Shown here: positions 25,758 to 56,328 of the stretch, piece by piece | Position numbering within the stretch: the stretch's first letter is position 1 | Layout of the letters: each line of letters starts with the position of its first letter | Made by a program: the position numbers and the translations under genes | Notes under the pieces: model-generated | Told to the model about the DNA's origin: nothing | Databases searched by the model: none | What the model saw: only the letters and a program-made list of their open reading frames with translations | DNA from: Polymyxa betae | Lineage: Eukaryota; Endomyxa; Phytomyxea; Plasmodiophorida; Plasmodiophoridae | Direction of reading: 5' to 3' | DNA length: 64,000 bases | Assembly: GCA_003693705.1 (NCBI GenBank) | Contig: RBZT01000125.1 | Coordinates: 372,001 to 436,000 of the forward strand

Positions 25758-28700
25758 TTAGACACTACGCCTCGTGCCTGTGCGCTTGGTATTCTGTTTC
25801 TCCAGCCTGGCGTTTGAAGCCCTATCAATACCAAAGGTGCTGAATACAGGAGTGCTTGTGCCATCATGTACTGCCGCTCGCAGTAGACCTTCCAATGTCA
25901 CATCAAATTCAAAATCGTTATTGACCGATTTCAAGTCTGAATCGCACATCCATTCAGGAACAGCTCGTTTGTTTTGCAGATCAAAGTAGCCAGATATTGT
26001 CGAAAACAGCCAACGCAATCGGTGCATTGGCAATGCTTCAGTAGAATATTTAAAATCGCTTGGAAGCCAGTCATTTGGCAGATTCCCTCGCGATGCCTTT
26101 ATGTCGTCTGATAACTCGACGATCGTTGGCAGCTTTGATTCGGCAAAGACGGGTGGGGATTGCTTGGCTGATACGAAAGAAAGAACATGTGAGATTCTTT
26201 TGGCATTCAGAGGACCGAATCCAGTATTCCCTGCTCTATACCATACGTGTTTGCACATGCCGTTGTCGCTTTTACCGAATTCTTGTATCCTGTTCTCGAT
26301 GTTTATCAGCGCTGATTGGGTGAAGACACCGTCATGAAAATATGTGAAATGTCGGCGAAAAAATTGTAAAATATTGTAGCCAGACAACGTAAGCTGTACG
26401 CATACGAATTAGGAAGGAAGCAGATATTGCAGTCACTAAACATACCGAAGTAACCAGCAGTTCGTCAGCGTGCTCTAAGGCTTGCGCGATACTGAATCGT
26501 TCTGATGAAAGGGAATCGGGCTGTTCGTCTCTTCCAAAATAGGTACGAATCCGTCGACTGTCATACCCATATTGGTGGCAAATCTGTTGCAGAATCCATT
26601 GAAGTAATTTTGCGAACTCGAGCGAAGTACAGAACGTAACGGCTGGTTGCGATGACATGCCAGAAACGGGGCAGAAATGATCCAGAAACGACAGGATTTG
26701 ATAATCGAATAGATCAACAATACGATGATAGCAATATGTTGGAACAAGACGTATTGGAACAGAGATGTGCCGTTTTTGCAGAAAATCCGGATTCAGATCG
26801 GGGTCAAATCGGCACAGAACACGACCGGCAAAGTCAATAACAGAAGACGGGATCATCGCACCCAATGCGTATACAACCGAAGCCAACGAACACACTCCCA
26901 CCAATGCCTCCAGATTTCGTTCCGCTTCGTCCGCTAATCCGAACTGCTGCTCGAGATAAATGGCGAACACATCCTCCAGAATCACATAATCCCATTTCGA
27001 GCGGGCAGGTAGCGCTTGCATCATCGTCCCGATATGATCGAATGCCACTGTGCATTGGGGCGAGAAGTTCGCCGTCCATTCCCGATTGTTTTGCTTCACC
27101 CAGATCCCTGGGTCCGCATAGCAGTGCGCTGCATACGCCGACGCCATAGTCCTCGACGTCGCCATGGTCGTGGTCAGCACGACGAACGCCGCTTTAGCTG
27201 CATTGAGATGAGAGGCGACGAGCCGAGTCGTGCCACTCTCTGAATCGCTTTCGATCACAACCAGACGAGCCTTATCGAATGGGCTTCTACTCAAATCGAG
27301 ATGGGAGGCACCATGAGGAAGAGAGGCCGCTCCGCTGACAATGTCGATCACGTTACCCAGTCTGGTATCAAAAGGGGAAGCGATCACCTGCCCTGCACCA
27401 GGCTCATTGTGAAATGGGACTTGTTCTGGGATCTCGATGATCGAGATCATGCGCTTGCAGGCGCCGGTGCAGAAAATCACTCGCCCGTTGCTGAATCCGG
27501 GCCGGAACCGCGATGGGTAGATGACCGCCTCAGCTCGGATGCGGTCGACCGACAAAGTCGAGAGCCAGAACGTGAACAGAGCGGCGCGAGCGTCGCCCTC
27601 TCGTGTCTGATGAAGAGGGCAGAATACGGCATTGCCTTCTTCCAGATCTTGCGCTCGCCATCGGGTCCCATCGTCCCGGATTACGACCCGGTCGCCGTCG
27701 ATAGAATCGGCCTGCAAGTCGAGTGGGATTTGGCTCTGATTGGCTAAAAGCCGTTGCCGAAACTCGTCAATGACATCCTGTTTCATTCGATCCCAAACGG
27801 TTCGCGATTGTCGCAGGAATTTCGGCGCCCATGTGACATGCCGGTCCTCGTCAGGCAGATCTTGGTACCCTTCAGGATATGTTTTACGGGCCACCAGCGT
27901 GCATATCGAATCTGGCAATGGCCATAATCTGATAGCATATCTGTTAACGACAAAACTATCGGGTTGGTGGACCAGGCAAGACTGCCACTGTTCAAGTGAG
28001 TATGAGAACCCTTCTTCGGGATTGTCGCAAAATTTGATCGATTCAGGAGCTGGACGTTCCGGGTCTGTTGCAAACTGAGTCGGAACAAGCCGTAATATTT
28101 GTTGATTATCCATTCTTGAAGCTCCTAGCAGAGGCAAAGCCTGGATGGGTTCGTACATTGTGCTGTTGATGATACCTTGCGAGACGGCAGCTTCCATCAC
28201 ATTCTGCAGTATATCTGGTGCTTTTTCCTCGGATAACTGGCGTCGAAGCTGACGCAGCTGAGTGTAGAGACCAACCATCGCCTCTTCGATATACTCACGC
28301 ATGGACACGTGATGATCATAGAAGATCACTTTCCGGAATATGACAAACCAGCTTATACCACTTGACGTCGATGCGTTCATACAGACAATATTCGACTCGT
28401 CAACATCGAGTCGTGTTAATGACGAGAAAGCCGAGCGCAGATGTCGGGCGAAGTATCGTATGGAAATGCTAACTATAAGCCGTGAAGCAAGGGCGTTCCA
28501 ACTGGTTTGAGATGGAGCAGGTACATCGATGCAGTAATAAAAGCAAGTATGACGCATACTGTCGGTTAAGGTTTCGTAAAGATGGTGTTGTTTGTTGGAG
28601 CTTCGCAGCGATAACATCCGATGCATTTCTGATGTAGAGCGTGCTGTGTAGTCCTTTCCATATTCTAAATTTGTGTCAGGCGCAGCTGCACCTGGACGAC

Positions 28701-28800
28701 TGATTAAAGGGCAATCCCGGGCCCAGATTCTTTCATTGTCGCGCAAATCGCGTCTTGCAAATGAGAACTGCTTATGCCAGCATCGTATTGAGGTGGACAT
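25758..28800 (-). CDS. PrimPol plus herpesvirus-type origin-binding-helicase-like protein, catalytic motifs eroded
   Basis: Two exons (26446-28800 and 25758-26393, intron of 52 bases) encode about 996 residues. The layout follows replicon proteins joining an archaeo-eukaryotic primase, a zinc-binding segment and a Herpes_ori_bp-type superfamily 2 helicase: residues 90-200 resemble a PrimPol (CIDVPAP; NASTSSGISWFVIFRKVIF), then NAVFCPLHQTREGDARAALF ... VIFCTGAC keeps the Cys-His-Cys-Cys zinc ligands, then LVVIESDSESGTTRLVASHL, VVLTTTMATSRTMASAYA, DYVILEDVFAIYLEQQF, VTFCTSLEFAKLLQWIL and, in exon 2, SGYNILQFFRRHFTYF. The positions expected to be catalytic are changed: D-x-D to DV, S-x-H to SWF, GxGKT to SESGTT, DE to ED. 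No stop or frameshift interrupts it. It may be a domesticated or decayed mobile-element or virus-derived gene. Family assignment is by motif order, not by search. Confidence 0.6.
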
Positions 28801-53725: not shown

Positions 53726-56328
53726 TTAAAGATCACGCTTTTCCTTGGATTCTTTTAATTCAACAACTCTGTTGAACACTATCCTTTCAGCGGTGGTATC
53801 TGTATCGACAATGAAGTAGCCGAGTCGTTCGAACTGAAACCTGCTGCCAACAGCAACATCCTTCATCATCTCATCAGCCAAAGCAGTTTTCTTGACGACC
53901 AACGACTCGGGATTCAGGTCGCTGAGCCATTCCCCAAGACCAGCCGGGTCCATTGATTTGAAGAGGTGATTATATAGGCGAACTTCGACTTGAACCGGGT
54001 TCTTGCCAGAGACCCACGTGAGAATGCCTAGCGAGAGGGATCAACAAATTCATATCAGATTGACGTTAGCGAGACCCACCTTTTACTTTCGCTTTTGATT
54101 CCTTATCAACCGAGCATAGAAGCTCGACGACATCACCGTTTTCGTCAGTAATGACCTTATCACAAGTGATGTGGAAAGCGCATTTCAAATGCACCTGCAA
54201 AACTGTTTAAGACGACTGTTGAAAGACACAATCTAGCTTGCGCACCTGCTTGCCTGGCGCCAGACCATAATAACCAGCGACATCTTCCATCCTGAAGTCG
54301 CTTCTGTCGATATAGACGACGTTGGAGATGGGGACCTTGCGAGTTCCCAGTTCGGGTCGCTTCGGGTGGATCGGGACATCGAGCATCTCGACGCCCTCAA
54401 AGTTGGTCAACCGGATTCGCAACGGGTCCAGTACGACCATGTTCCGAGGCGCTTGCTCATCGAGCTCGTTACGGATGCAGGCCTCGAGCAGCGACATGGC
54501 GATGGTGTTCTCAGCACGAGTAACGCCGACGCGCGCGCAGAACTCGTTGATGGCGGATGGTGTGTAGCCGCGACGCCGCAGACCGTTGATCGTGAGCAGG
54601 CGCGGGTCGTCCCACCCCTGAACATAGCGATCTTCGACGAGCTGCTTCAGCTTCCGCTTCGACATCACATTATAGGTGATGTTTAGACGAGAGTATTCCC
54701 AAACCAGAGGCCGGTACAGGTCGAGTGCCTCAAGCAGCCAATAGTACGAGTCCCGTCGTACCTCGAATTCCAGCGTGCAGAGCGAATGCGTGATGTGCTC
54801 AAGAGAATCGACCAGACAGTGTGTGAAATCATACGATGGATAGATACACCATTGATCACCAACATGAGGATGCGGCTCATACTTGATACGATATGCAATA
54901 GGATCCCACATACACGGATTCGGATGTCGAATATCGATCTTCATACGCAGGGATACCTCACCCTCCTTATACCGGCCCTGACGCATCCATTCGAATTTCT
55001 TCAGGTTCTCATCAGGATCCGTATCACGCCAAGGCGACGGTGCCTGCTCCATGCGTGCAGCTCGAGCCGCCTTGATCTCGGCCTGAGTCTGATGGCAGAC
55101 ATAGGCCTTGCCGCGCTTGATCAGGAGCTGGGCCAGCGCGTACAGCTGTGGGAAGTACTCGGATGAGTACGTGATGGCAGCTGGTTCATGTCCAAGCCAG
55201 TGGACATTCTCCTGAATCGAGTCGATATAGACCTTCTTCTCAGCTGATGGATTCGTATCATCGTAACGCAGGAAACAGGTTCCAGTCTTGGCCTTGGCAT
55301 AGCCGAATGAGAAGTTCATCGCCTTGGCATGACCAATGTGAAGGAATCCGTTGGGTTCAGGCGGGAATCGAGTCCTTACACGCCCACCTGTGATCTCATT
55401 ATGGATTTTGAGCAAATCGGGCGTGTTGATAGCTGAGTCTAGAGGACGAGCAATGAACTCTTTCTCCATCTCGGCCATGGTCATGACCGGAGCCAGCTCG
55501 GTCGATGATTTTGGGGCGGCGGCCGTTGTTGTACCGTCCTTCTTGGGGGCCTTGGATTTCTTAGTCTTCACCATATCTGTGAATGAAATGAGGAACGACA
55601 AAATGACACAAAGGTTAAATTCACCTTGTTCGGTTTTAGGACCCAAAAGGTTCAAAATCTGAGCATCCATCTCAGTTTTGACAGTGTTGGCATCAACGAA
55701 TGGCAGACGTCCTCGAATCATGCCCAACAAAGGGCCAAAAGCGTAATGATATCTATTTGAAATTTGAGATATAGAGCGGATACGATTAAGTTGATAATGA
55801 ACCTCTTTTGCTTGATCTCATCGACGAAGTTGCCAATTACGTCAGATACAGCCTGGGCGATCTCTTCGGGAGATGTCACCACACCAACACCGCATTTTGA
55901 TTCAAATGTGGCCTGGTCGAAGGTGGTGTTCTTGGAGAAGTAGTCGATAGCAGCAGCAACGTGTGCTGGGCTGCCCAATCGCCTATCATGTTATATCAAT
56001 AATCGGATTCTCTTTTATAAGCAAGCTCTGGTTACCCATCAACGATATAGGAAAGCAGCAGCTTTCTATGATTGAGAACAAACGGGGTGGGCTTCAGATT
56101 AGAAGCTACAGAGACCAATAGCTTTCCAATAGATTCGGAACATCCCGACACCAAGCCAGCCTAATGCATAGAGATTAGAGCGTGGAATGCCCCTTCAACA
56201 AATGCGATCTAATCAACCTCACGGATGATATTCTCGAGATTCTGAGCGTCCTGCTCGCTGAGCTGTGACACAAATTTGGGATTCAGGCCGATACCCAAGA
56301 GGAGATCATTGCGGTCGTGTGAGTGCAT
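53726..56328 (-). CDS. QARS: Glutaminyl-tRNA synthetase
   Basis: Cytosolic class I aminoacyl-tRNA synthetase charging tRNA-Gln. The N-terminal domain (MHSHDRNDLLLGIGLN ... GSPAHVAAAIDYFSK) is the eukaryotic GlnRS_NTD, separated by introns. A lysine-rich linker (MVKTKKSKAPKKDG) precedes the catalytic domain with the HIGH-type motif PPEPNGFLHIGHAKAM, ending with the KMSKS equivalent NVMSKRKLKQLVE. GlnRS-specific features include LRYDDTNPSAEKKVYI, PSYDFTHCLVDSLEHI and DDPRLLTINGLRRRGYT. The anticodon-binding beta-barrels follow (NMVVLDPLRIRLTNF; GYFIVDTDTTAERIVFNR) to the stop at 53726-53728. The main exon is long (54207-55575). Nothing looks damaged. Confidence 0.97.

Follow-up and report, generated by a model that had tools for sequence, protein, structure and literature searches.

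A 996-codon gene of Polymyxa betae that resembles virus-type primase-helicase fusions, with key catalytic residues replaced in both parts

The gene described here lies on the minus strand (28800-25758) of a 64,000-nucleotide stretch of DNA from the plasmodiophorid Polymyxa betae (contig RBZT01000125.1, positions 372,001 to 436,000; hereafter the window), within the 24.4-Mb assembly GCA_003693705.1 of 541 contigs. We consider, with a probability of about 0.55, that its product is a strongly diverged, non-enzymatic descendant of a virus-type fusion of a PrimPol primase and a UL9-like superfamily 2 (SF2) helicase. The two domains occur in the expected order, with a similarity in profiles and model that is specific but weak. 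Kinship to the virus-type primase-helicases is in itself quite probable and, if it holds, the residues found at the motif positions make a loss of catalysis likely. A preliminary description of the window had proposed such a loss with the frame preserved, and this is still the reading best supported by the profiles, the model, the motifs and a simulation of decay, although no Pfam family matches and some of the tests were null.

The preliminary description had given the coordinates, the length of about 996 residues, the 52-base intron and the absence of stops as they stand in the sequence. The gene has two exons, namely exon 1 (26446..28800, residues 1-785, with the ATG at 28800) and exon 2 (25758..26393, residues 786-996), which encodes a basic C-terminal tail and ends in a TAA stop at 25758-25760. 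Between them is a 52-nt intron (26394..26445) whose signals, GTATGT, a CTAAT box and ACAG, were read from the letters; a profile comparison yielded no support from homology for this putative splice, and an alternative 43-nt splice likewise leaves the frame open. The spliced frame of 996 codons contains no inner stop. Before splicing, the uninterrupted minus-strand open reading frame (ORF) runs from 28803 to 26335 and has 823 codons, which is well beyond chance because 300 first-order Markov samples drawn from this 5 kb contained no ORF longer than 251 codons. Codon use, compared with that of six pooled long ORFs, weakly supports the frame (in-frame r = 0.52, against 0.38 and 0.49 for the two remaining frames and 0.35-0.46 antisense). 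The gene's own protein, used as query (exon 1 at E 0.001, exon 2 at E 10), finds a single copy in the genome.

The similarity to primase-helicase fusions was assessed with a reference profile built for the purpose. IMG/VR was screened with a degenerate DNA pattern for SPMGTGKT, which gave 10 stretches (3 and 43 viral ones were returned for two other Walker A patterns), and one of the 10 encodes a protein of 1,084 residues in which PriCT-2 and Herpes_ori_bp domains were recognised. Used as a query, this protein returned 30 proteins, 28 of which carry a precomputed PF02399 match, and 18 of the 30 PrimPol plus UL9-like helicase proteins make up the profile. Since it matches both the origin-binding protein of herpes simplex virus 1 (HSV-1; E 3.7e-36) and human PrimPol (E 7.8e-17), we regard it as a fair yardstick for this architecture. 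None of 150 shuffles of the N-terminal part scored as high against the primase profile as the part itself (residues 68-105, 37 aligned columns), and only 2 of 150 did so for residues 480-870 against the helicase profile, where the match lies at residues 506-661. When the halves were swapped the scores fell to chance, with 66/150 and 86/150 shuffles as high. The primase-then-helicase order of the preliminary description is thus borne out by the matched halves, although the relationship is a remote one that reaches no Pfam family.

An AlphaFold model of the exon 1 part (785 residues), aided by 17 relatives, points the same way. It shows, with modest confidence, one core resembling PrimPol and another resembling RecA, with 143 of 785 residues at a predicted local distance difference test (pLDDT) score of at least 70, whereas an unrelated control ORF modelled with the same relatives had none of 687 residues at that level and no fold match at E <= 0.001. 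The best matches of the model in the PDB are human PrimPol and Hel308; the RecA1 fold of SF2 helicases was recovered, and fold searches return SF2 helicases. Human PrimPol (5l2x, 7jlg) is the best Foldseek match of the N-terminal part of the model at E 2.8e-4, yet the template modelling (TM) score is 0.29 of the target with a root-mean-square deviation of 13. When aligned with the present protein, human PrimPol still has D-L-E, S-R-H and the third Asp. Human PrimPol is not known to have a helicase. The low TM score makes the primase fold a tentative assignment.

The motif columns were taken from four MAFFT modes. In the primase-like core (residues 68-240, 28081..28599), which rests on the profile match and on the model match to human PrimPol, C90-I91-D92 (28525..28533) falls on the D-x-E (D-I-E) of motif I in all four modes and in hhalign, so that motif I lacks its first acid and has Asp as its second. 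The preliminary description had read this motif as DV in place of D-x-D; its reading is out of register, and D92 is kept. The motif III region (residues 212-229, 28114..28167) has N212 on the third Asp and S228-R229 on S-K in all four modes; the loss of the third acid was not listed in the preliminary description. The three acidic metal ligands accordingly read C90, D92 and N212 in every mode. Motif II is ambiguous: S150-W151-F152 (28345..28353), earlier proposed as the counterpart of S-x-H, takes that place in two of the four modes and in alignment A1, but the other two modes place I159 and H163 there.

In the helicase part, the first RecA-like domain (residues 506-661, 26818..27285) is the region that exceeded nearly all shuffles and for which fold searches return SF2 helicases. 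At the Walker A position (27226..27249), S-D-S-E521-S-G-T524-T525 aligns with S-P-M-G-T-G-K-T; all four modes set E521 and T524-T525 on G..K-T, and the sequence reads E-S-G-T-T rather than GxGKT. The arginine of motif Ia is replaced by T545, and G647 (26860..26862) stands on the Asp of D-A-F in motif III, both in all four modes. At Walker B, I-L-E609-D610-V (26968..26982) occupies hh-D-E-h with the order of the two acids swapped and both positions acidic (four of four modes). The letters SESGTT for Walker A and ED for Walker B had been reported correctly. Motifs V and VI fall in the same columns in three of the four modes and do not score above shuffles.

Between the two parts lies a possible zinc segment, C394, H397, C444 and C448 (27457..27621), identified from the letters only. 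Its spacing is C394-x2-H397 and C444-x3-C448; the Cys-His-Cys-Cys letters are as described preliminarily, but there is no Pfam match to the UL52 type (PF03121) and the model confidence is low there. A scan for the C-H-C-C pattern among long ORFs of >600 aa with G-[TSG]-GKT found it only in two ORFs, L041 and L053, which are equal in length and score; this was provisionally taken for chance.

Several results weigh against a kinship with these proteins. A profile match to PrimPol or Herpes_ori_bp had been set beforehand as a test, and the prediction failed it at the level of Pfam, so that finer tests were needed: with max_evalue 10, Pfam returned no family for either exon 1 or the exon 2 ORF, and neither reached the cut-off of Herpes_ori_bp (PF02399). 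In PHROGs exon 1 was without a match and exon 2 had a single one at chance level (E 0.56), while PDB sequences, searched with exon 1 only, gave three chance-level matches (best E 0.21). Of 7,987 candidates scored in a large protein-set search with the spliced protein, none reached E <= 10, and a search with alignment A3, in which the gene's protein is included, scored 7,988 with none at E <= 0.001. Motifs IV-VI did not exceed chance against shuffles, the RecA2 part alone was equalled by 56/150 shuffles, several whole-length and conserved-column tests were weak or null, and the primase match was weaker in whole-length tests. Identity to the reference proteins in the alignments is about 11-16%. 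Because the defining features tested were not found, the protein is not assigned to PF02399 or to the active PrimPols.

Active paralogues elsewhere in the genome, a check suggested at the outset, were not found. The profiles P0023 and P0013 matched nothing in the P. betae genome but also missed the present gene, and an active paralogue may therefore exist. The empty answers of PF02399 and PF04451 carry little weight because neither matched any of 14 control genomes; PF08706, which matched in 3 control genomes, found nothing. PF03121 had one match, with E 0.67, on a different contig; it was judged to be chance after the ORFs there were listed. The ordinary small subunit of the replicative primase is present as the one PF01896 match in the genome (E 2.1e-27; L060, G000:C52:36879-37862).

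An alternate explanation is that the gene encodes an unrelated, fast-evolving, lineage-specific protein, whose likeness to a PrimPol-helicase arose by chance through inspection by eye and repeated testing. The failed searches would fit such a protein, but the specificity of the half pairing, the domain order, the stable motif columns and the appearance of PrimPol- and RecA-like cores in the model and not in the control make this unlikely. We give somewhat less credit to a divergent yet working enzyme with unusual residues. D92 and both Walker B positions are acidic, H163 stands at the S-x-H histidine in two of the four modes, and that histidine is altered in viral proteins thought to be active, according to passages of PMC11253617. 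The Walker A lysine and first glycine, the motif Ia arginine and the first and third primase acids are, however, changed in all four modes.

Least probable, by a small step, is that an inserted virus or mobile replicon left a remnant that is decaying and has an open frame only because the decay is recent. The virus-type architecture, the single copy and the lack of any close relative in the searches would suit it. We simulated decay by drawing random substitutions onto the coding sequence, with indels ignored, in 200 runs at each of six levels. None of the 1,200 runs was stop-free, and at 0.1 drawn substitutions per site there were at least 2 stops, with a mean of 1.4 of 8 key positions changed (the eight include the ambiguous F152). 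Free decay is for these reasons a poor explanation of the catalytic losses and is unlikely. Only short, imperfect repeats lie near the gene, none of them recognised as insertion ends, and the neighbours with Pfam matches belong to cellular families, which also speaks against a remnant. The losses may have arisen under selection and been followed by recent decay.

If the protein is a non-enzymatic descendant of such a fusion, its ancestor would be a PrimPol plus UL9-like SF2 helicase of large eukaryotic DNA viruses. The primase site would be dead with two of its three acidic metal ligands gone, as would the helicase site with the Walker A lysine and first glycine, the motif Ia arginine and the motif III aspartate gone, and selection would have held the frame open despite these losses. 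The present role would most likely be that of a non-enzymatic nucleic-acid-binding or scaffold protein. Its primase core and the possible zinc segment would grip DNA that is single-stranded or forms a junction, its RecA-like part would act as a clamp that turns over no ATP, and the basic tail may direct the protein to the nucleus. We infer from the open frame and the altered motifs that function was retained under selection; viral ancestry, DNA binding, a nuclear location and domestication to a new role are putative corollaries. We give slightly less than even odds to the tentative proposal that a cellular lineage retains an entire virus-type primase-helicase in the form of a double pseudoenzyme, its primase and ATPase sites both erased, and uses it structurally in binding DNA or controlling replication.

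UL9-like helicase-primase fusions are known in asfarviruses and mimiviruses, as the passages of PMC1594570 report. Such fusions, among them mimivirus R8, African swine fever virus pF1055L, that of Ostreid herpesvirus 1 and the SF2_hel proteins of some yaraviruses (passages of PMC11253617 and PMC1594570), share the primase-then-helicase order and a similar length with the present protein. Both halves of the P. betae protein match the profile of such proteins, but it differs from them in its replaced catalytic residues in both parts, in the possible zinc segment between them and in its cellular genome. From HSV-1 UL9 (structures 9hgi, 9hgj) it differs by the absence of a PF02399 match and of the Walker A lysine, and mammalian herpesvirus UL9, as described in part of PMC11253617, has no primase domain, unlike the present protein with its primase-like part. 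The same passages indicate that the primase domain is still intact in the SF2_hel proteins of yaraviruses, whereas most SF3_hel1 proteins have primase residues replaced with the fused frame kept; the SF3_hel1 helicase is of superfamily 3 and is presented as required for replication, whereas in the present protein the SF2-like motifs are replaced too. Fungal PrimPol orthologues have been reported and are thought to be of viral source (part of PMC4538821).

Primase domains that have lost catalysis are thus already known in small relatives of giant viruses, where the helicase is retained (passages of PMC11253617). The passages on viral fusions and PrimPol describe no fusion with both parts inactive, and among the papers listed none presents such a protein in fungi by title or abstract start, in a coverage that leaves out most subscription papers. 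If the proposed reading is true, two dead engines in a preserved frame of 996 codons would mean that the fused architecture is useful beyond enzyme work, and the gene would offer a test case for the entry of viral replication proteins into cellular service.

One viral contig from IMG/VR, IMGVR_UViG_3300037485_001433 (34,654 bases), has ends (L009 1-4165 and the far end of L003) that were compared over 4,165 bases and are identical throughout as reverse complements. The same 1,084-residue PrimPol-Herpes_ori_bp ORF stands at both; the ends are either terminal inverted repeats of great length or a product of faulty assembly. In the window itself, Pfam matches of neighbouring genes are to glutaminyl-tRNA synthetase, the MID domain of medPIWI, a short-chain dehydrogenase and an inositol-phosphatase-like family, with weak matches to the magnesium transporter NIPA and to Myb. 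Together with the short intron and the density of genes, these matches give the window a fungal appearance. The glutaminyl-tRNA synthetase is encoded by one long minus-strand ORF (54210-55817; PF00749, E 2.9e-113), and its closest solved chain is Glutamine--tRNA ligase 4ye9.
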